From IMG/VR virus record IMGVR_UViG_3300012922_000008, positions 1-57,989 of that record: 57,989 nucleotides of DNA; one strand, given 5' to 3'. The stretch comes from a virus. The notes beneath the pieces were generated by a model. It was not told the origin of the DNA. It searched no databases and saw nothing but the letters and a program-made list of their open reading frames with translations. This document shows, piece by piece, positions 45,630 to 55,852 of the stretch (positions are counted from its first letter, which is position 1; every line of letters starts with the position of its first letter). The translations under genes were made by a program, and so were the position numbers.

Positions 45630-46253
45630 TTACGGCTTATATACAAATCCATTCTTCTTTGGAGCTTCAGGCGTTTCCCAAAAAGCCCTATCTCCTTTAT
45701 ATCCAGGCCACTTATCAGGCTCCCAACCATTACAAAAGTACCTAGCAACATCACTCTTAAAGACTAGATAGTACCTATAATACCTCATCTTCGCAATTTC
45801 TTCTTTAGTCCTCTTACGGTCAATACGAAGTAGAGTGAGATAGCGTTCTGGATAGCTACGCTTATCTATATTCACAATCCAATCTTTATCTAACTTATCC
45901 CACAAGCCCATTGAGCATGAGCCGCTTAAAGAGTGGTGACAAGTATAAGTTGATTGCTTTCTAGTTTGTTTATCATTAGGGTTTGACACATTATTTGGGA
46001 ATATCTTATAGAATAGATTAACTCCACTATCCCCACTATGAGAATCGTGCCAATCCAGTGTCTTCTTTGCAATCTTCCAGCCTGCGGCTAAAAGTAACCC
46101 AGGTGTTTCATAAGAGTCCTTCGCGTCAGTAAAAGCTATCCTTGTTTTAATCAAAGCTTCTTGCGCTTTAATTGCCTCTTTAAAAGTTTGGCCTGCATAT
46201 GACCGAAGATGATTAATCTCCGTTAAATCATTATAATGCTGAACCAACTGCAT
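45630..46253 (-). CDS. Hypothetical protein next to amidoligase 1
   Basis: A 207-residue charged protein with a strong Shine-Dalgarno (GGAAGG). The N-terminus is helical; the C-terminal half holds a Tyr and Arg-rich region (MRYYRYYLVFKSD) and a Trp-rich end (GWEPDKWPGYKGDRAFW). No motif is known to me. It overlaps the amidoligase gene by 23 nt, so the two are co-translated and may work together. Confidence 0.55.
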   Translation of the reverse strand: MQLVQHYNDLTEINHLRSYAGQTFKEAIKAQEALIKTRIAFTDAKDSYETPGLLLAAGWKIAKKTLDWHDSHSGDSGVNLFYKIFPNNVSNPNDKQTRKQSTYTCHHSLSGSCSMGLWDKLDKDWIVNIDKRSYPERYLTLLRIDRKRTKEEIAKMRYYRYYLVFKSDVARYFCNGWEPDKWPGYKGDRAFWETPEAPKKNGFVYKP

Positions 46254-47058
46254 TTTCGTTCCTTCCCAGTATTTTAAGTGACTTCCATGTATCTTGGATA
46301 TCTAAATCAACCCGTGCCTCTAGCTTTAACTTCGGCTCAAATATCTTCTCAACTACCCTAGCAGCGTCATTATCCTTACTTTTGTATTGCTCAAAGAGCA
46401 TTTTTAGTCCTACCAATCCATTCAACTCAACCTTTGGATTAGTGGCAATCAACTTCGCCGCAGTTATACAAAGTAAAGTAGTTACAGGTGAATAGAGCCA
46501 AGAACACATAGACCTATATTCAAAATGATTGTCCTTATCAGCGCCCCTAACGGAGCTTAACTTCCCATAATCTAGTTGTCCATATCTCCTACGGTGATGA
46601 CAGTCCTCTTTGGGTAGGATATCCAAGTCCTCAAATAATATAGTAAGGGCATCTAAAGCCTTAACTCGTACTTGATTCTCTTTTGTTAGATACTCAAGGG
46701 GGATACTCTGATTCCTAAACTCATAAGTCCCGCAAGGAATATCAAAGTGTATATGCCCACCCAAGGTTATCAAGCGCCTAGGAGACTTATAATGTGCCCC
46801 ACCCCTAAACGTATATCCTGCATTAATAAGGTTCTTTGATACACTATGCATCAACAATAGCTTACGCATCCTTCTTAGTAACCTAAATGTCGATTTAGAT
46901 GGCTTTGGCTTAATCTCAAGTACATCCCCTCCGTGGTCAAGGGCAACCTCAAGAGCATCCTTTGTTGTATAAGCAGCAACATTAATTAAAGTACCAGCCT
47001 TATCCAAAGCTATATACTCAGGGTCAGCTCCAATTAAGAATGTGTTTACTAGTTGCAA
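46231..47058 (-). CDS. COOH-NH2 ligase (amidoligase 1)
   Basis: A 275-residue ATP-dependent ligase of the glutamine-synthetase fold. Family marks: GADPEY near residue 10, LEIKPKPS near 47, GGHIHFD near 99, and FEYRSMCSWLYSP near 179. Such enzymes are predicted to join carboxyl and amino groups to make peptides or modified proteins. TTG 47058 is the start, with GAGGAGG four bases upstream. It is the first of three paralogues in this cluster. Confidence 0.78.
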   Translation of the reverse strand: MQLVNTFLIGADPEYIALDKAGTLINVAAYTTKDALEVALDHGGDVLEIKPKPSKSTFRLLRRMRKLLLMHSVSKNLINAGYTFRGGAHYKSPRRLITLGGHIHFDIPCGTYEFRNQSIPLEYLTKENQVRVKALDALTILFEDLDILPKEDCHHRRRYGQLDYGKLSSVRGADKDNHFEYRSMCSWLYSPVTTLLCITAAKLIATNPKVELNGLVGLKMLFEQYKSKDNDAARVVEKIFEPKLKLEARVDLDIQDTWKSLKILGRNENAVGSAL

Positions 47059-47658
47059 TTAACCTACCTCCTCATACAGAGGTGGAAGTTTGGGATTAAA
47101 CCAAATAGCGTCAGGTATTTGAACAGCTTGTGCTTGACCAGCTGCCCCTATTAACTGCCCTACATTTTGTATATTATGCTGTTGAACTACTTGATTAGCC
47201 CAACCAGCAGGCATATCATAAATTCTTCCTGCCTGTGGAACTTCTATTGGGTCAATAGGCAAGACATCTCCATCTCTATTGTTATATCTTACTTTATACT
47301 TAATATTACCGGGATTTTTAATATTTGGCTTCTTAATCTCAATCGGCTTCTTAAACTTTTTCCTCAATTTAGGAATCCCAAGCTTTAACTCAATCCTCTT
47401 CTTCCCGTAAAGAGACTTCTTTATCTTAGCCCCCTTAGGCTCCCTAAACACCTTAATATCCCACTTCCCTTCATTCTTAGCCATCCAAAATAACTTCTTC
47501 CAGTGCGGCCAAGTAGCAAATATTACTGGGGCAACTTGTTCAATTACAACATTTCTATATTTCTTCCTCCAACTTTCCTCAATATACCTATGAGCCATCC
47601 CGCCAATACAAGGTCCATACTGAGGATGCATGGCAACTATTCTAACTCTACTGCTCAT
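47059..47658 (-). CDS. Lys-rich hypothetical protein in ligase cluster
   Basis: From the ATG at 47658 this is 199 residues, overlapping the ATP-grasp stop as ATGA. The middle is very Lys, Ile and Pro-rich (KKFKKPIEIKKPNIKNPG). The N-terminus contains MHPQYGPCIGGMAHRYIEE. Many Lys side chains could make it an acceptor for ligation, but that is speculation. No family is known. Confidence 0.55.
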   Translation of the reverse strand: MSSRVRIVAMHPQYGPCIGGMAHRYIEESWRKKYRNVVIEQVAPVIFATWPHWKKLFWMAKNEGKWDIKVFREPKGAKIKKSLYGKKRIELKLGIPKLRKKFKKPIEIKKPNIKNPGNIKYKVRYNNRDGDVLPIDPIEVPQAGRIYDMPAGWANQVVQQHNIQNVGQLIGAAGQAQAVQIPDAIWFNPKLPPLYEEVG

Positions 47659-48413
47659 TGTTTCTCCGCCCAAATCGAAACATGCTTCGCTAACCTCACC
47701 CCCGAACTCCTCTGAATCGAATCAATATGAGGCATTGAATTAATCTCAAGCACATAATACTTCCCATCCTTCCCCTTCAATATATCCACCGCCCCCCAAT
47801 CCATACCTAATGCCGCCACAGCCTTAATACAAGGACCCTCTATTTGGTGGGTTCCGATTAACTCATCTCTCTTAATAAACTTAAATCCAAATCTCCGGTT
47901 CCGCATAAATCCTTCATACTCGCCTTTTCCCTTATAGACCTTTTCATAAGTGGCGAAGGCTTTGTTGCCTAGGACCCATACCCGATACTCCGTATCGGTT
48001 GGGATGAATACGCTGAAGAAGTCATGTTGGCCCACCCGCTGTACTTGACGAATATCGTTAGCGGTTTTACAAACTACAATATCTTTACCCTTAGTATGAT
48101 GTTTTTTTCTAGCTAAAACCGGTTGTAATTGAATCCAATAGCTAACATCTAGGTCATCATCTATATGAAACGTCTTAGGACATAGTACATTTTTATCTCT
48201 GAACTGCTTAAAACAATTGAACTTATCATACTGATTCACCTTACTATTCAGAAACGGCTTTGGCCCGTTATAACTTCTTCCCCAAGATAACCCCACCATA
48301 AATGGGTCATCCTCTGAACGGACTACCTCATGCCCAAGTTCCTCAAGATGATGAGTCATTATTTTGATTGCTGTGTTACTTGCTTTACCGCCTTTTAAGT
48401 AGATTGTTTGCAT
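47655..48413 (-). CDS. ATP-grasp ligase
   Basis: A 252-residue RimK-like ATP-grasp enzyme. ARKKHHTKGKDIVV gives the phosphate-binding Lys region, EYRVWVLG the next strand, and DWGAVDILKGKDGKYYVLEIN the metal-binding Asp, Glu and Asn at the C-terminus. It would form amide bonds through an acyl-phosphate. Its place between a glutamine amidotransferase and an amidoligase supports a shared biosynthetic or tagging path. Confidence 0.82.
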   Translation of the reverse strand: MQTIYLKGGKASNTAIKIMTHHLEELGHEVVRSEDDPFMVGLSWGRSYNGPKPFLNSKVNQYDKFNCFKQFRDKNVLCPKTFHIDDDLDVSYWIQLQPVLARKKHHTKGKDIVVCKTANDIRQVQRVGQHDFFSVFIPTDTEYRVWVLGNKAFATYEKVYKGKGEYEGFMRNRRFGFKFIKRDELIGTHQIEGPCIKAVAALGMDWGAVDILKGKDGKYYVLEINSMPHIDSIQRSSGVRLAKHVSIWAEKQ

Positions 48414-48606
48414 TATTAATAGGCCATCGTACTCGATAGACTATAGTCCCCTTTCCGTTTACTATTATACTGGTGGTATCCTTGTATACATGAGCATTTT
48501 TCTTTTTATAAGTTCCAAACTTTCCTTGGTCAGTTGTTAATTCAACATAACGAGCGTCACGTTCTTCTTTAGAATAAAATACTTGTTCTTGATAGTTAGT
48601 TGACAC
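48385..48606 (-). CDS. Small hypothetical protein in ligase cluster (73 aa)
   Basis: A GTG with AGGAGAGG upstream opens 73 codons. The protein is polar and basic (TYKKKNAHVYKDTT, VRWPINNANNLLKRR) with short beta strands. It overlaps both neighbours and may be a carrier or substrate peptide for the ligases, an idea based on size and location only. Confidence 0.5.
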   Translation of the reverse strand: MSTNYQEQVFYSKEERDARYVELTTDQGKFGTYKKKNAHVYKDTTSIIVNGKGTIVYRVRWPINNANNLLKRR

Positions 48607-49609
48607 GTGCCTCTCCTAGAGGACTTCCACACCCACCCTTATCTTTCGGACAAACTAACTCATTCAAATCCATACTCAACTGATGCTTCCCAAGAATCAA
48701 CGGCTTCTGACACTTCGGACACGTTAATAATATCTTATCCCCGGCATCCTTAGCAGGGAGTATAGTCTTAACATCTTTATTAGTGTCTGCTTCTTTTGTC
48801 CACTTATCCTGGCGCTCTTTGTAATTAGTGTAAACTCTCCGTACAGGTTCTCTGTAAGTCCCCCAAAAGCTCTTAAACTCTCCGTGCATCTCTTTACCAT
48901 CCGGCCCAATAATCCATAATGTACTGTCAGGGAATGGGCTGAATCCCATATCAGACCTTGGGAACTGCCAGCAAATCTTAAACCTTTCTTTAACAGGCTT
49001 CATAGCTCGATGGATAACATTCTTCTCGCTAGCAAATACTAAGAAGTCATCTGTACTACCAAGCGTAAGCGGAGACCCCGACCTCCCAAATAACATTTTC
49101 CCAGGATACTTAGGACTCATAGCTGCTATCGCAGCAGAGCCTCTTACTTCATTCAACATCACTATAGCCTTAGGAGTAATACCATGCTCATCAATGATAG
49201 CTCTAATGATGTCTGAATCTGTCTCCGCAGCCCGGTCAAGCTTCAATCTCTTAAACACCTCATCATCATTCTCAATCTTCCCGTTATGAACAACAGCCGT
49301 ACATCCATTAAACATAGGATGATTGTTCTTTGCAAACCGCGGATTCCCCTTCGTAGCTGCCCGAGCATGAACTATAACCTGTTCTGCATCTTTTAGGTGC
49401 TCATTCATCCACTCTTCATATATCTGAGACTTTACAAACGTCCAAGCGGGAACATCGTTCTTTAAAGTATACACGTCCCCCTTCTTATTCTGAAGGGCAA
49501 TCCCAGACGCATCATTCCCACGATGTTCTAGTCCTGTAAGCAACAATCGAATCATGTACTCTTCGATTGGCTTGTCACTATACTTTCTGATTCCGGCTAG
49601 ACCGCACGT
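48596..49609 (-). CDS. Class II glutamine amidotransferase, apparent ACG start
   Basis: An Ntn-hydrolase domain of the GATase II type. LEHRGNDASG, VHARAATKG, HNG (in AVVHNGKIEN) and the ETDSDIIRAI stretch are family marks. The frame has no ATG, GTG or TTG before the catalytic region, yet it reads TGC-GGT-CTA-GCC-GGA (C-G-L-A-G) just downstream of an AGGAGGG. An ACG at 49609, seven bases after this site, would give Met-Cys2. A later ATG at 49555 would drop the nucleophile. The C-terminus has two CPKC/CPKD-type zinc pairs. It probably supplies ammonia for amide formation by the neighbouring ligases. Confidence 0.8.
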   Translation of the reverse strand, partial: TCGLAGIRKYSDKPIEEYMIRLLLTGLEHRGNDASGIALQNKKGDVYTLKNDVPAWTFVKSQIYEEWMNEHLKDAEQVIVHARAATKGNPRFAKNNHPMFNGCTAVVHNGKIENDDEVFKRLKLDRAAETDSDIIRAIIDEHGITPKAIVMLNEVRGSAAIAAMSPKYPGKMLFGRSGSPLTLGSTDDFLVFASEKNVIHRAMKPVKERFKICWQFPRSDMGFSPFPDSTLWIIGPDGKEMHGEFKSFWGTYREPVRRVYTNYKERQDKWTKEADTNKDVKTILPAKDAGDKILLTCPKCQKPLILGKHQLSMDLNELVCPKDKGGCGSPLGEARVN

Positions 49610-49610
49610 A

Positions 49611-49811
49611 TCAATACCCTCCTTTCACTTTTTCCAATCGAATTTGAGCTAATCTGGCTCTTAAGCGCGTTTCCATATTAACAGCATGAATAACCTCATC
49701 GTGTTGACAATAATATTTATAGGAAGCACACCAAGCACTGGTATCATGGATATATTTACCAGTAGACTCTTTTTCTAAGTCCATCAATAATTTATCATCT
49801 ATATCAAGCAT
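49611..49811 (-). CDS. Small hypothetical protein (66 aa)
   Basis: The ATG overlaps the amidoligase 2 stop (TAATG). The product is a helical, acidic-then-basic peptide with two Cys (WCASYKYYC) and ends one base before the ACG of the next gene. Its final codons carry the Shine-Dalgarno of that gene, so ribosomes ending here could reinitiate at the ACG. Function unknown. Confidence 0.55.
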   Translation of the reverse strand: MLDIDDKLLMDLEKESTGKYIHDTSAWCASYKYYCQHDEVIHAVNMETRLRARLAQIRLEKVKGGY

Positions 49812-51310
49812 TATAAAGTTAGCTCCTTACCAATATATTTAACATTCTGCTTAACCTCATTCTTTCTGACCCAATCTTCAAAACACCCTTCCTTAACATC
49901 CTTAACATTCCATATTGGAAATAGCCCAGATGTAAGAACTTTTCTAACTTGTTGAATAGTATTATACTGTCTAAGAGATTGTGGAAGACAAATTCTAAGA
50001 TGCTTAACATCATTACCAACATTAGTACGCGCTAACTTCATATTCGGAAATATCTTAGTTATCTCTTGTAATCCTTTACTAAAATCATATTTCCCTTCCT
50101 CATATTGGATAATTTTAGCTTGGTCACTACTAGTAATCTCAATCCTCATACTTCTATGACAAGCTAAATCATGTACAATCTCTCCTACGCCCATCTTATG
50201 ATACGTCTGCGTGAAGCTCATATTCCATATATAGCCCTTTGGCAGCTCTTTAGGCTCCCAATTACAAACTGGTAGGTCGGGACGAATAGCTTCTTTATTT
50301 ACAAGATAATTAAACACAGCTTGTCTCTCATTCTCAGTCCCTTCAATTATTGAAGGATAATAAGAAACCGGCATCTTGTTTGGTTGAGGAAATACTATTC
50401 CCCATTCTACCTTAAAATCTCCTGCCCCTTGTTGTTTAGGTAATCCCCACTTCTTCAAAGCATTAAAAGCAATCCAAGCGTCATCGTCAACATTCTTATA
50501 ATAAGCTAACAAATTACTTATGGCCTTTTCAAGGAACTTAGCTTTCCTCTCAGAGTTCTTGTATATATTCAGTATCAACTTAGGCTCATATACTGTAAGC
50601 TTAGACAACACTAACACTAAATACGCCATCCAAGGGGAATCCATCCATGTAGGAAAGGACCTATACTCATATCCATATCGCTGAGGCCTAAAATCCCCAT
50701 AATGCCCATACTTAGTCTTAGCCCGACGATAGTCATTAAGTTTATCATTGAAAACTCCCAACAACATCAAAGACATATTAAGAGTATCAAAAGTGCTTAT
50801 ATCTCTGTCTCTTTCTATTGCTCCCCGCCTTCTTGCTAAATGAACATGTCCCCCAATTCCGTCCTGACCATCCCAAGGAGTACTTAACCAACTGTACTCC
50901 AAGCTACTCGGAAAAGTAACTGCCATCCACCTCAACTCTGCCAACATAGATGCAATAATATCCAATATAAACCTACTTGGCCGTGGCCTAAGCTCAACTA
51001 ACCTACCATTCATATCCATACCAAAAGCTAATCCAGTATTTAAACCAAGCTTCATAGCAGGTACTAATGAGCTAGTTAGCGGGTCTAACAATGAATACTC
51101 TGGGTCCGCCCCTACCGTAAACCTATTCACTAACCTTGGATTCTGGGGGATACAAGTAAGTGAATTAACAGTATTCATCTGGCCAATCCACTTCTCCACT
51201 AACCTATTTGGTATCCCTATCTTTACATTCTCAGGAATCTCTTCAATTGTTGTATATGCATGTTCAACAACAGATTTCAAGAATGTAGATTTCAATTCAG
51301 CAAATTCCAT
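49811..51310 (-). CDS. COOH-NH2 ligase (amidoligase 2, 499 aa)
   Basis: The longest of the three amidoligases. The catalytic half holds VGADPEY near residue 67, VELRPRPS near 105, GGHVHLAR near 153 and YEYRSFPTWMDSP near 213. The C-terminal 200 residues have no clear relative and may be a second, substrate-binding domain. The ATG follows AGAGGGATAA. It lies just upstream of the amidotransferase gene, with one small gene between. Confidence 0.75.
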   Translation of the reverse strand: MEFAELKSTFLKSVVEHAYTTIEEIPENVKIGIPNRLVEKWIGQMNTVNSLTCIPQNPRLVNRFTVGADPEYSLLDPLTSSLVPAMKLGLNTGLAFGMDMNGRLVELRPRPSRFILDIIASMLAELRWMAVTFPSSLEYSWLSTPWDGQDGIGGHVHLARRRGAIERDRDISTFDTLNMSLMLLGVFNDKLNDYRRAKTKYGHYGDFRPQRYGYEYRSFPTWMDSPWMAYLVLVLSKLTVYEPKLILNIYKNSERKAKFLEKAISNLLAYYKNVDDDAWIAFNALKKWGLPKQQGAGDFKVEWGIVFPQPNKMPVSYYPSIIEGTENERQAVFNYLVNKEAIRPDLPVCNWEPKELPKGYIWNMSFTQTYHKMGVGEIVHDLACHRSMRIEITSSDQAKIIQYEEGKYDFSKGLQEITKIFPNMKLARTNVGNDVKHLRICLPQSLRQYNTIQQVRKVLTSGLFPIWNVKDVKEGCFEDWVRKNEVKQNVKYIGKELTL

Positions 51311-51318
51311 TTATCCCT

Positions 51319-51738
51319 CTAAGCGATACGATATATACCTTTAGATACAACATACGGCCATTTTAACCAATTAGGAAAGTTCTCTGCCATAACTTCAGGA
51401 TGATAAAACTGCCACAATTTTACATTCGTCTTACGAACACCCGGACTCCATCCTCCAGCATAATTCATGTCTAAATGAAGTAACCCTCCTCGGTCAAACT
51501 CTCCATATATCGTTATAGCTTCCACGTTCTTAACTGGAACCTTACAGAACTTCAACCATTCATTATACATAGTTCTAGATGGCTTACCAAGATACATAAA
51601 ACTACGCTTTCCCGCAATCGCACTTAAGAATATACGAGTAGGAGCTTTCCCAGGAAAGGGTTTAATTCCTCTTGCATGAGTTATACTCTCAGGCTTTTTA
51701 ATCCACTTTGATACTATTTGTGTAGTAAATCGTTTCAT
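51319..51738 (-). CDS. Hypothetical protein in ligase cluster (139 aa)
   Basis: A 139-residue basic, Trp and Pro-rich protein (KPFPGKAPTRIFLSAIAGKRS, GGLLHLDMNYAGGWSPG). It looks folded with several beta strands. It is the gene before amidoligase 2. I cannot link it to a family. Confidence 0.5.
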   Translation of the reverse strand: MKRFTTQIVSKWIKKPESITHARGIKPFPGKAPTRIFLSAIAGKRSFMYLGKPSRTMYNEWLKFCKVPVKNVEAITIYGEFDRGGLLHLDMNYAGGWSPGVRKTNVKLWQFYHPEVMAENFPNWLKWPYVVSKGIYRIA

Positions 51739-51750
51739 AATCGTTTCAAA

Positions 51751-52230
51751 TTAAGCTGGAATCTCTAACCCTGGTCTTTTAGCTTTCTGTCCCAAATCCT
51801 TCGTAAGATAGACAACCTTATTCCCTGACTTAGCGTTTATAAAGGGCTTACTAATCTCATAGTTAATTAGATTACCCCAAAGATGTTTATTAAGCCTCTC
51901 ATAAGACATAACTTGAGTTAAAATCAATGACCCAAACCCTGCCTCATATGCCGCTTCTCGAATAGCTTCAACTACCTGATTAAAATAAAGAGGCTCCCTA
52001 GGCATCGGGTCAATATAGCTCGCTGTCAAAACCGCACAGCACCCCGGCATCTGCTGAAGCATAAACACTGCATTAAAGTCCTTTGCCGTAATCTGGCAGT
52101 GAACCGCATCCCACTCGTTATGTCCCCACAACTTCTTAGGATTGCTCTTAAACCCCCACCCATTCTTCTCACAAATCTCTGGAAGTGTCTCCAGAATCAA
52201 GTTTGGATGTCCAACCATTTCTCTTAACAT
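51751..52230 (-). CDS. Possible acetyltransferase-like protein (159 aa)
   Basis: A 159-residue alpha/beta protein. The segment FNQVVEAIREAAYEAGFGSLILTQVM, with a following NKHLWGN and a C-terminal strand KVVYLTKDL, loosely resembles the acceptor half of GNAT proteins, but the acetyl-CoA-binding RxxGxG/A loop is missing. The ATG is preceded by GGAGAACGAAGTA. The call is tentative. Confidence 0.4.
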   Translation of the reverse strand: MLREMVGHPNLILETLPEICEKNGWGFKSNPKKLWGHNEWDAVHCQITAKDFNAVFMLQQMPGCCAVLTASYIDPMPREPLYFNQVVEAIREAAYEAGFGSLILTQVMSYERLNKHLWGNLINYEISKPFINAKSGNKVVYLTKDLGQKAKRPGLEIPA

Positions 52231-52267
52231 TACTTCGTTCTCCTTTTCTTATCAAATTGCTTCATGC

Positions 52268-52348
52268 TCACGGACCCACTTTTGGGTGGATAGATTGGGT
52301 GTCAAGTTCTCGGTCCCCTTCATAGCTACCTGTAACATAACAAGACAT
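52268..52348 (-). CDS. Possible 26-residue peptide with strong RBS
   Basis: An ATG with GGGAGGATAAG just before it opens 26 codons, directly after the Cys-rich gene stop. A GTGA junction leads to a further 13-codon frame that ends TAATG with the next gene. The ribosome-binding site is good, but the peptide is too short to judge by composition; it may be a translational link. Confidence 0.3.
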   Translation of the reverse strand: MSCYVTGSYEGDRELDTQSIHPKVGP

Positions 52349-52349
52349 C

Positions 52350-52832
52350 TTATCCTCCCTTCTTCTTAACATCCTTAATCTGATTCATAGCCTGTCTCAA
52401 CGCATGTGGTGTAGCTGTAGTATACTCCCACTCAGCCTCACAGTCCTTACAACACAGCGGCAATCCATATACCTTACGATGTGTCGCTAAAGTACAGATA
52501 ATACACTCGTTAGAGCGTTTGAACATCTTATAAGCTTCTTCAAGTAGCGCTCCACATCCATTCTGTTTATGAGCCTTGCGCTCTTTCTTAGTGAAGTAGA
52601 AGCAATTACATGCTCTACAGTTCGCCCACCCCTTCCGCCAGTGTGAGCCTTGAGCGCCGCACCAATATCGATAATCACCACCGTTTAAAGGGTCACCTTC
52701 ACCAGTGAGATTAGTTACTGTGTAGCCAGTGTTAACTCGCTCCGCTACATAGTACTTCTCCATCTTGGGCATTCTGATGCCCCCAGGGAAGCCAGAGACT
52801 TTACGGACTAGGTAATCGGGGAGACTAATCAT
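52350..52832 (-). CDS. Cys-rich zinc protein (160 aa)
   Basis: From the ATG at 52832, overlapping the GNAT gene as ATGATTAG, this is 160 residues. Cys pairs are WC, NCRACNC, GCG, CIIC and LCCKDC, enough for two or three zinc sites. The C-terminus is basic (IKDVKKKGG). A longer TTG-started frame exists, but its extra N-terminus is only a shifted copy of the GNAT gene. A nucleic-acid-binding role is plausible. Confidence 0.6.
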   Translation of the reverse strand: MISLPDYLVRKVSGFPGGIRMPKMEKYYVAERVNTGYTVTNLTGEGDPLNGGDYRYWCGAQGSHWRKGWANCRACNCFYFTKKERKAHKQNGCGALLEEAYKMFKRSNECIICTLATHRKVYGLPLCCKDCEAEWEYTTATPHALRQAMNQIKDVKKKGG

Positions 52833-53217
52833 GCAATCGTTTTCCCCACAAAGCGGTTTTTGTGTCTCGACGACTAGTAAATCGTATCCATCCGCTAGTT
52901 TGAAGAAGATGAATCTCAACTATATTGTCATTTTTTACCGTTGCTAACAATAAATTCACGCCAGCTTCTTTTGCCAAATTCTCGCGTAACTGTAAAAGTT
53001 TTCTTCCTTCTCCTCTATTACGAAATTGAGGTTCAACCAATACACCGTGAGTGATAATAGTACGTCTATTACCCGGCATAAAACTCATGCTAAACTTTGC
53101 AACAGTTGTTACATACTCTATTGTTCGTTTATCTCGAAGAATAGGATACATACCACGTGTATGAAAAGCACGCTGTAGCAGGTATATTGATTCATTAAGA
53201 GAGTTTGTGCGTATCAA
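52825..53217 (-). CDS. GNAT-family acetyltransferase
   Basis: A 130-residue GNAT protein. The acetyl-CoA pyrophosphate loop is FRNRGEGR at residues 65-72, preceded by the strand HGVLVEP and followed by the helix KLLQLRENLAKEAG and a strand LLLATVKNDN. The start is TTG overlapping the upstream stop. It may acetylate an intermediate or an antibiotic-like molecule; in this cluster it could modify a peptide product. Confidence 0.75.
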   Translation of the reverse strand: MIRTNSLNESIYLLQRAFHTRGMYPILRDKRTIEYVTTVAKFSMSFMPGNRRTIITHGVLVEPQFRNRGEGRKLLQLRENLAKEAGVNLLLATVKNDNIVEIHLLQTSGWIRFTSRRDTKTALWGKRLHD

Positions 53218-53375
53218 TTTTGAAAACCTTTCTCTGGGTTCCGTTTTGCCGGAACTGAAAACTCTACCTTCTCACTCTCTTCTTGACACTTTGGACACGG
53301 TTGAGTGTCGTACTTTGCATCTACAATACTCTCAAACCTCCCATGCTTAGGGCATTCAAACTCGAATATTGGCAC
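53214..53375 (-). CDS. FmdB-like zinc ribbon (53 aa)
   Basis: A GTG frame of 53 codons. The pattern MPIFEFECPKHGRFE, then CPKCQEESEKVEF and a Pro-Ala-Lys-Arg tail, closely follows FmdB-type putative regulatory zinc ribbons: a Cys-x-x-His pair and a CxxC pair around a small beta sheet. It overlaps the cyclotransferase-like and GNAT genes on either side. Confidence 0.65.
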   Translation of the reverse strand: MPIFEFECPKHGRFESIVDAKYDTQPCPKCQEESEKVEFSVPAKRNPEKGFQN

Positions 53376-53805
53376 GATACACTCCATCTTCAATAGGATT
53401 ATTATACTTCATACCGGGAAACGTATGTTCATATACCCAAGAACTCATCCACCCAAAATCTGGTCCTTCAGGATTACCAACCCCAACTTCAACAATTTTA
53501 CGAGTGTAAGCAAACCCATTAGATTCAATGCTATCCAGCCATTTCCAAAGCTTCTGAGGAATCTTAAATACCTCCCCATACACTTCCCTATGAATATCCT
53601 CAGTAAACCGTAACCCAACCCCGCTACCAATGCTATAAAGAATAGCCCCCGGCAACACAGCCTCTCCAATAAACTCTGCTCTGTATGTAAGGTCAAGTAT
53701 AAACCCACGTTTTAATATGCCATAGACAAATAGATAATCACACACCTTCTCAGGCTCTTGAAGAGATACCTCATTCAAACTCCACGCTGGAATTACTCCC
53801 GTCAT
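53356..53805 (-). CDS. Gamma-glutamylcyclotransferase-like protein
   Basis: A 149-residue protein with the GGCT/AIG2 mark FVYGILKRG at residues 26-34, a later VYGEVFKIP strand, a catalytic-Glu-like LDSIES and a final Tyr-Arg-Arg-Lys run (AYTRKIVEV). These enzymes release amines from gamma-glutamyl amides as 5-oxoproline. Next to amidoligases it may reverse or edit gamma-glutamyl tags. The ATG overlaps the previous gene as ATGA. Confidence 0.76.
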   Translation of the reverse strand: MTGVIPAWSLNEVSLQEPEKVCDYLFVYGILKRGFILDLTYRAEFIGEAVLPGAILYSIGSGVGLRFTEDIHREVYGEVFKIPQKLWKWLDSIESNGFAYTRKIVEVGVGNPEGPDFGWMSSWVYEHTFPGMKYNNPIEDGVYRANIRV

Positions 53806-53972
53806 TTATTCACCCACCCATTCAAAACTTGATTCCCGCACTTACAACGCCAGATTGGGAGGTCTAGGTTGTAGTCCACACTATGAGAGATAGAAAAGCG
53901 CAAGTACGCACGCCCCTCACAATGTCCACACTTTCGTCCAATTATAGCGTTCCAAATTACTCTTAACATCAT
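53802..53972 (-). CDS. Zinc ribbon mini-protein (56 aa)
   Basis: AAGGAG sits two bases before an ATGATG pair and opens 56 codons. CGHC and CKCG pairs, 28 residues apart, form a zinc ribbon between beta strands (YLRFSISHSVDYN). It follows the structured region and its terminator-like hairpin at once, so that hairpin could control its translation. It ends as ATGA with the cyclotransferase-like gene. Confidence 0.6.
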   Translation of the reverse strand: MMLRVIWNAIIGRKCGHCEGRAYLRFSISHSVDYNLDLPIWRCKCGNQVLNGWVNK

Positions 53973-53989
53973 TACTCCTTAAAAAGTAT

Positions 53990-54540
53990 CGGGGTGGGTG
54001 AAAAGCCCTCTCGCTCTAATCCACCCCTCGACATTTCCATTTGTTTTAGCGCAACCAGCGGCCAAACTGGTTTGGTTTTAGTCTACTATAGGGTCCACGA
54101 AGGTCCGCTAAGTATTTGTGCGCATATTCACCTACTTGAGAGAACTCAAGCAAATGAAGTCAATCACAGCTATTCACCGCTGTGAATATCAACCCAACAC
54201 AAAGCCTCTAAGAAGTGTGTCCTAGCTCTGCCCTAGTAGACAATTATCTTAAGTCATAGCCATATCCTTGTTTAGAACGGGGTGCCTGAGTATTCCATTA
54301 ATATAAAGCCCTTAACAGAACATCGGAAGTCAGCTCTCAATGGACCGTAGGTCCTCAAGCTTCCCACCTAGCCTCTACACCGCCCACAGAGGGACACGAA
54401 CATACAACCATCAACAACTATACACTAGGAACAACAACCACATAGCGGACTTGGCTCTCACCAAGCTGGCCCGAAAGGGCCACCCACCAATAGTCATCAC
54501 CAGCAGAGTGCGTTAGCATTCTTCGGCAATGTGTTGGGAA
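53990..54540. ncRNA. Candidate large structured noncoding RNA
   Basis: About 550 nt without a plausible gene in a genome with few gaps. Local hairpins include 54134-54150 (CTTGAG-AGAA-CTCAAG), 54062-54075 (CCAAAC-TG-GTTTGG), 54165-54187 (two mutually exclusive 6-bp hairpins), 54342-54354 and 54467-54482 (TGGCCC-GAAA-GGGCCA). Long-range pairs are 53993-54000 with 54481-54488, 54103-54110 with 54443-54450, and 54081-54093 with 54231-54241 (bulged, a possible pseudoknot). GAAA and cUUCGg loops (54519-54532) favour the plus strand. A hairpin with five T at the left end favours minus. Size and style recall the phage RNAs GOLLD and ROOL, not tested. Confidence 0.5.
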
Positions 54541-54545
54541 CTCGT

Positions 54546-54827
54546 TTATTCAAACATACTCCAAGCTTTATTGTATTCATCATCATTCATTAGACTTGAG
54601 TGGTCAGTTAATTTCTTATTAACCTCAGACTGACATATCCCACCACCACAAATCAAAACTCCCTTGTAGTTCCTTTGTACAGACCTTCCACAATAAAAGC
54701 ACATTAATCCAGGCATTACTTTCCCACTCCCGCCACAAGTTTCACAAACTTGTGAGTTTATTAAGGAGTTAAAGATAGCTTGTCCACTACAAGTAGGACA
54801 GCTTACTGGTTTGACAGTTTTGCCCAA
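54546..54827 (-). CDS. DnaJ-like zinc-finger protein (93 aa)
   Basis: CPTCSGQ, CETCGGSGKV and CFYCG repeats resemble the CxxCxGxG zinc fingers of DnaJ. The start is not certain: TTG 54827, about nine bases after GGGAG, is preferred over an upstream TTG at 54878 that lies inside amidoligase 3. It could bind zinc and assist folding or RNA binding. It ends just before the candidate RNA. Confidence 0.6.
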   Translation of the reverse strand: MGKTVKPVSCPTCSGQAIFNSLINSQVCETCGGSGKVMPGLMCFYCGRSVQRNYKGVLICGGGICQSEVNKKLTDHSSLMNDDEYNKAWSMFE

Positions 54828-55852
54828 CTCTCCATACTCCCATCTCCATGACCAGTCCAGGGTTGATTGAACTTCCAATTAGACACAAAATCCCCTGGGT
54901 CTTTAACAAGGGACTCAATGCCGTTCATTGCAAGATTGTGCACTTGTGGTTTCCAGCCTTTATTAAATAAACCATAACGCCCAAAAGTTGTCAAATAATT
55001 CAAAAGGTACTTATTTTTGGTAATCAACGCCCTAGCTGCTTTTTGGTTATTCTCATTAATAATACCAATAACTTCCATCTCATCAGCTTGCCATAAGTCT
55101 TGAGCTTTACTATCAACTAAGGCCAATACACCCCTTACAATCTCAAATGCCAAATTCGTAATCCCCGGATGTGATAGCACAGGCGAACTTAGAACTCTAT
55201 ACTCTAATCCATGAGGTGGTAGTCTATACTCTCCAGCTAATCCGTAGTACTCTCGTCGTTTATTACTCTCTAAATGTGCTCCTGCTGCAACAAAGAACAC
55301 TCCAAGAACCGCATCTAACGCTTTCACATAAGGCACAAATTTATTCATTTGAGCTTCAGGAGTCTTGTAATGAGGCCCCCACCCAGACATATGAACATGA
55401 ACTCCATTAAACCTATATCTCAACTTACGCGGGTCCCCACAATCTCTACCTCCCATGTGATAAGCATTATGTGATGGGTCACAGCCTAGAATAACATATT
55501 GTTCAGGAGTCTTCTTCAACACATCAATAGGAATCATCGGAGCGTTATCAAGTACTAATGAAGCTCCATTAGACTTCTCCCAAATACCTTTCAATCCATT
55601 CCTAATTGAATCAACAAGATAAGCTATACATCCATGTGGACGCGCGCCTAGCTCAGCTTGGAATCCATCATTGTAAATTGTAGCGCCATAGTCATTCCCT
55701 TGTTTTAAAACTTCTACTTTAACCGGCTTATCCTTGGGCGGAAGAAACTCAAACGCAGGCAATATCTTCCCATCCTTACTCCTAGAGAATATCTCCGGGT
55801 CTGAACCAAACTCATAATGCCTAAATCGTTGGATACGTGAGAAGTCCTGCAA
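54803..55852 (-). CDS. COOH-NH2 ligase (amidoligase 3, 349 aa)
   Basis: The third amidoligase. FGSDPEIF near residue 15, NDGFQAELGARPHG near 61, GVHVHMS near 150 and HGLEYRVLSSPVLSHP near 210 give all family marks; a C-terminal helical segment completes the fold. TTG 55852 has GGAG seven bases upstream. It lies in the far-upstream part of the leftward block, about 3.5 kb from amidoligase 2, with zinc proteins and the GGCT gene between. Confidence 0.78.
   Translation of the reverse strand: MQDFSRIQRFRHYEFGSDPEIFSRSKDGKILPAFEFLPPKDKPVKVEVLKQGNDYGATIYNDGFQAELGARPHGCIAYLVDSIRNGLKGIWEKSNGASLVLDNAPMIPIDVLKKTPEQYVILGCDPSHNAYHMGGRDCGDPRKLRYRFNGVHVHMSGWGPHYKTPEAQMNKFVPYVKALDAVLGVFFVAAGAHLESNKRREYYGLAGEYRLPPHGLEYRVLSSPVLSHPGITNLAFEIVRGVLALVDSKAQDLWQADEMEVIGIINENNQKAARALITKNKYLLNYLTTFGRYGLFNKGWKPQVHNLAMNGIESLVKDPGDFVSNWKFNQPWTGHGDGSMESWAKLSNQ

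Follow-up and report, generated by a model that had tools for sequence, protein, structure and literature searches.

Phages LUZ24 and phiEco32, the zobellviruses and crAss-like phages encode a PF14395 ligase (lig1) together with an Amidoligase_2 protein (PF12224), a class II glutamine amidotransferase (GATase) and an ATP-grasp enzyme, often accompanied by a gamma-glutamyl cyclotransferase (GGCT). Thus, LUZ24 and phiEco32, which have both lig1 and Amidoligase_2, already possess two ligases each. UFV-P2 (PMC3890496), Bjorn and others have the cassette too, and in these phages, as in LUZ24, phiEco32 and the zobellviruses PA11, CW02 and Klyazma, it also includes a ~190-aa gene. In the LUZ24-like phage PaP3, microarrays placed ORF32-48, which include the cassette, among the middle genes, with a peak at 10-30 min (PMC4707531). 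No product, substrate or phenotype was reported for any phage member in the literature searched, in agreement with an earlier note on the DNA analyzed here, which knew of no experimental product.

The window, the whole stretch of 57,989 bases that was analyzed, is one IMG/VR virus record. Its gene order was read as podovirus-like, and at the DNA level it matched none of the cultured phages. Seven family-matched enzymes were found on its minus strand within 9.6 kb, at 46.2-55.9 kb (Pfam; PF14395 cutoff, 25 bits). They are the three PF14395 ligases, RimK-like ATP-grasp ligase, class II GATase, gamma-glutamylamine cyclotransferase-like (GGACT) protein and GNAT that the earlier note had named from sequence (Table 1). 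The genes had been described as all overlapping or nearly so, which is correct for 46231-53972 but not for the pair holding the 54803 ligase, which lies beyond a gap of ~570 bp (53973-54545). We saw no convincing minus-strand gene within this gap. We conclude that the block is genuine and conserved, an enzyme module whose kind is known and for which we infer the chemistry and the acceptor.

Table 1. Features of the amidoligase block (window coordinates)
Feature	Position	Strand	Evidence or remark
LIG3 (lig275), third PF14395 ligase, accessory, duplicate of LIG2	46231..47058	-	Pfam 57.5 bits
204-aa Lys-rich ORF	47059..47673	-	No Pfam match; no phmmer match in sister loci
RimK-like ATP-grasp ligase	47655..48413	-	PF08443 39.6 bits; phrog_2599 76.7 bits
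73-aa ORF	48385..48606	-	No relatives found in sister loci
Class II glutamine amidotransferase	48596..49609	-	PF13522 56 bits; inferred start ACG 49609
66-aa ORF, stop just before GATase start	49611..49811	-	No relatives found in sister loci
Shine-Dalgarno-like AAGGAGGG in front of ACG start	49617..49624	-	DNA sequence
LIG2 (lig499), PF14395 ligase in Amidoligase_2 slot	49811..51310	-	Pfam 62.8 bits
P189, Cys/His (zinc-finger-like) protein	52350..52832	-	Conserved beside LIG2 in clade loci
GNAT acetyltransferase-like protein	52825..53217	-	PF00583 30.5 bits
GGACT / gamma-glutamyl cyclotransferase-like protein	53356..53805	-	PF06094 47 bits
LIG1, PF14395 COOH-NH2 ligase, TTG start	54803..55852	-	Pfam 38.3 bits; phrog_3815 'COOH.NH2 ligase' 107 bits

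A survey of other phages found the same gene set in LUZ24, phiEco32 and further cultured phages. The link made earlier to the phage neighborhoods predicted by Iyer and colleagues (2009) therefore held, as far as that prediction is quoted in later papers. Four hallmarks of the LUZ24/phiEco32 kind of cassette are found in the window: PF14395, a GATase II with an N-terminal Cys (if translated from ACG 49609), ATP-grasp and GGCT. LUZ24 and PaP3 (gp16-gp22) resemble the window in having LIG1, a ~190-aa gene before a second glutamine-synthetase-fold ligase, GATase II, ATP-grasp and GGCT, as well as a small gene in the GATase/ATP-grasp cassette. However, their second ligase is an Amidoligase_2, whereas the window has no PF12224, and no relationship to P189 could be detected for their ~190-aa protein. 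phiEco32 (gp77-gp86) has the same enzyme set as the window but with PF12224 and a single PF14395 gene. Members of Zobellviridae (PA11, CW02, Klyazma) share LIG1, GATase II and ATP-grasp with the window; theirs lie beside replication genes and are joined by an additional class I GATase, which was not found in the window. Two large genes lie just upstream of lig1 in LUZ24 (gp14-15, L005:5443-7380) and phiEco32 (gp87-88, L006:29130-31311), and genes of similar size occur in Salmonella 7-11, GAP52 and Privateer-like phages, with no Pfam match over the cutoff.

The closest relatives of the block were obtained by alignment-based scans of viral contigs. Searching such contigs with the GATase or lig499 as single queries returned nothing, so alignments were needed to find them. 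Twenty-two distinct contigs, including the window, contain LIG1, P189, LIG2, GATase and ATP-grasp as far as each contig extends; LIG1 of one contig is found elsewhere in its record, and one contig ends inside the GATase. The core is retained even though identity between its proteins has fallen to about 30-45%, which points to selection. PF12224 had no match in the window or the 21 other contigs of the clade. In all 22, a second PF14395 ligase, LIG2, fills the Amidoligase_2 slot, and we therefore classed the block as a variant rather than an ordinary member of the cassette. Fourteen of the contigs have three PF14395 genes and eight have two (several of these eight being fragments). At least five other phages also carry three, so three paralogues in one phage are not unusual, contrary to the earlier note.

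We also compared the distribution of the two ligase families among 82 phage records, a collection biased toward relatives of the query ligases. PF12224 was found in none of the 30 records with at least two PF14395 genes, as opposed to 38 of the 49 with one (Fisher p 6e-13, a significance inflated by relatedness; genes were counted by hand from match tables). Three records had PF12224 without PF14395. PF12224 and LIG2-like ligases do not strictly exclude each other, since the large phages L127 and L130 contain one of each. These phages and L133 combine a gene resembling Amidoligase_2 with a single LIG2-like ligase and a pair of GATase-like genes, and some of their GATase-like N termini read MCLAIYKPA and MCRxAAFPP.

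LIG1 is the counterpart of LUZ24 gp16 and phiEco32 gp86, matching known phage lig1 at E 3e-39 in profile comparison. By the same method, LIG2 and LIG3 are nearest to each other (E about 1e-29) and have no significant similarity to the Amidoligase_2 group. LIG2 had no PF12224 match either, and the idea that it is a recognizably diverged PF12224 protein was dropped for lack of a profile signal. A further possibility, that the ~190-aa LUZ24 protein has been fused to lig499 as its C-terminal part, was likewise discarded after testing. In a FastTree phylogeny of 89 ligases, LIG2 was monophyletic (support 0.999), LIG3 grouped with one further sequence (0.968), and the LIG2 and LIG3 clades were sisters (0.993), which indicates a duplication inside this phage lineage. 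In place of the usual Amidoligase_2, the clade has a PF14395 ligase that is sister to LIG3, and this replacement is its new feature. LIG3 itself is 41% identical to L022:13026-14084. It is missing in 8 of the 22 clade contigs, some of these being fragments, and in all of the window's closest LIG2 relatives, as might be expected of a redundant or decaying duplicate without a role of its own. We regard this explanation as unlikely, given that LIG3 retains every motif and forms its own well-supported clade, and that a third ligase is present in the 14 other contigs.

All four ligase motifs reported previously were found in LIG1, LIG2 and LIG3, and the acidic, His and Arg positions of the motifs were invariant in six aligned ligases. 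Profiles of LIG1 and LIG2 retrieved nothing meaningful from PDB sequences. An AlphaFold2 model of LIG2, the only ligase modeled, had an ordered, confident core at residues ~60-300, with a low-confidence, unreliable C-terminal part (355-499). Its best Foldseek matches in PDB were PafA, a bifunctional glutathione synthetase, Dop and glutamine synthetase, followed by glutamate-cysteine ligase; these matches were weak (best E 1.6e-4, TM about 0.34). They support a glutamine-synthetase-type fold, as had been proposed along with intact motifs. Because the TM-scores are only about 0.3, they do not name the substrate of LIG2. The Pup ligase PafA and Dop have this type of fold, but they are ~11% identical to LIG2 and no Pup-like protein was recognized, so that they serve as a works-like comparison only.

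The product of P189 is encoded beside LIG2 in every clade locus, directly upstream of it in the sister loci and separated from it by two short genes in the window. The open reading frame was called as 52350-52919; alignment and DNA indicate that its true start is likely the ATG at 52832, which overlaps the GNAT stop (ATGATTAG). The invariant positions (n = 8) are C101, C104, H117, C122, C139, C142, C156 and C160. A structure model of moderate quality (pLDDT 70) had no PDB match at E <= 0.001. Profile comparison detected no similarity between P189 and the ~190-aa protein upstream of Amidoligase_2, the two having only their position in common, and the profile of that conserved protein of the known cassettes (hyp190) had no match in the window. 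The earlier note had listed the small genes at 47059, 48385 and 49611 as possible substrates and left out 52350-52832, the conserved one. The 204-, 73- and 66-aa genes were rejected as conserved substrates, since phmmer found no homologue of them in any sister locus.

The GATase has a four-Cys, zinc-ribbon-like C terminus. Its alignment invariants are C2, R30, H81, R83, N109, G110 and D131 plus the four C-terminal Cys residues. We rejected a start at 49555, because it would remove the N-terminal catalytic Cys; the frame extends to 49609, where an ACG codon is followed by TGC, the codon of this Cys, and is preceded at ~8 nt by AGGAGG. Reading upstream from the catalytic Cys, the frame reaches a stop before any ATG, GTG or TTG. 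Among 97 distinct phage GATase genes, the codon before the Cys was ACG, ATC or ATT in 14 (window, L006, L011, L012, L015, L016, L079, L109, L115, L117, L121, L148, L161 and L162); the others had ATG (76), TTG (6) or GTG (1). The codon is ATT in phiEco32, KBNP1711, Asterion, T4S1, L079 and L148, and ATC in Klyazma. ATC or ATT lies behind a similar Shine-Dalgarno site in the related contigs L015, L016, L109, L115, L117 and L121, and a Shine-Dalgarno match of at least four bases was present in 14/14 near-cognate genes. In six of them (window, phiEco32, KBNP1711, L079, L121 and L148), the open stretch upstream lacks any canonical start. The lig1 genes served as a loose control: of 104, 100 had ATG, GTG or TTG no more than 16 codons from their first motif (Fisher p 0.012). 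The 14 are not independent events, since six of them (window, L015, L016, L115, L117 and L121) fall in one subclade. The phiEco32 GATase is annotated from its ATT codon, whereas the GenBank entries for Klyazma and T4S1 begin at a Met inside the protein and omit the nucleophile; the recurrent, probable non-AUG start explains such clipping of the catalytic residue. In L039:11485-13092, L040:11139-12725, L054:10841-12430 and L061:10794-12542, the GATase frame runs upstream of the Cys, with a hydrophobic, membrane-helix-like extension instead of a Met-Cys start.

Judging from these sequences, ACG, ATC and ATT probably serve as GATase starts, and their recurrence suggests that the dose of the enzyme is controlled. 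A more radical possibility is that the block is a distinct pathway in which P189 is a dedicated acceptor or carrier and the GATase is deliberately throttled by its near-cognate start (ACG, AUC or AUU), a kind of start that recurs in unrelated phages. We consider this reading rather improbable. If true, the near-cognate start would make GATase synthesis sensitive to initiation factor IF3.

Of the remaining enzymes, the ATP-grasp protein has E223 and N225 (LEIN), both invariant in 16 aligned sequences. GGACT homologues were found in several sister loci (100-133 bits), and the window protein keeps the Glu of the GEV/GEI motif. The GNAT is sporadic in the clade, with homologues only in L020 and L016/L017.

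On balance, the block probably encodes a variant of the amide-ligation (amidoligase) pathway of phages such as LUZ24 and phiEco32, with LIG2 in place of Amidoligase_2. The catalytic residues retained in the ligases, GATase and ATP-grasp argue for this assignment, as do the matches of the LIG2 model to protein- and glutamate-ligating enzymes. Of the interpretation offered previously, the glutamine-synthetase-fold ligases and the Iyer-type neighborhood stand, whereas the exceptional status of three ligases and the small-gene substrates do not. The predicted pathway most likely acts in mid-infection and forms amide or gamma-glutamyl linkages driven by ATP. The GATase may split glutamine or remove a gamma-glutamyl group, and LIG1 and LIG2 would activate a carboxylate, probably gamma-glutamyl, with ATP and then join it with an amine or ammonia. 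The RimK-like enzyme could add further amino-acid units, the GGCT-like protein could take off gamma-glutamyl groups as 5-oxoproline, and the GNAT may cap an amine. The order of these steps and the acceptor are guesses; as acceptor, we would favor a protein of the host or a peptide of the cell envelope that is modified in mid-infection.

Ligases, GGCT and class I GATase handle gamma-glutamyl groups in known pathways, and GGCT-type deprotection is known for BtrG in butirosin synthesis. The presence of GGCT, and of class I GATase in zobellviruses, alongside the ligases would fit a pathway that makes a free small molecule, for instance a peptide-like metabolite or a gamma-glutamyl one, and uses GGCT for deprotection. 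We treat this as a tentative alternative, since no carrier protein or tailoring enzyme was recognized and many clade loci gave no GGCT match. Bacterial glutamine amidotransferases amidate peptidoglycan (MurT-GatD), which is in line with a modification of the cell wall or envelope that blocks superinfection or premature lysis. Iyer et al. (2009) proposed such a role for phiEco32, according to PMC10580990 and PMC11318856, the former giving it as cell-wall modification against superinfection. It overlaps with the amide-ligation pathway favored here but appears unlikely in its own right, as no Mur-ligase-like gene was recognized among the proteins scanned. The cassette often adjoins primase-helicase and DNA polymerase genes, which would suit DNA base hypermodification; however, this neighborhood may reflect shared timing only, and no base-modifying gene was recognized among the proteins scanned, making hypermodification highly improbable.

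Bacterial relatives were also found. A genome scan detected LIG2-like genes, about 30% identical to LIG2, in Paenibacillaceae and others. In Paenibacillus, Cohnella and Chengkuizengella, translations read by eye placed the PF14395-like gene with a gene resembling cotE (spore coat) on one side and one resembling mutS on the other; L165, L168, L169 and L170 are Paenibacillaceae loci of this arrangement. Unlike in the phage cassette, no GATase or ATP-grasp was recognized beside the PF14395-like gene in the Paenibacillaceae loci. The cotE-side position of these relatives hints at protein or coat modification.

The enzyme set was predicted in 2009 and is widespread, including in well-studied Pseudomonas and E. 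coli phages. The variant described here separates the interchangeable part of the cassette, the second ligase, from the fixed parts, LIG1, GATase and ATP-grasp, and points to P189 as their conserved partner.
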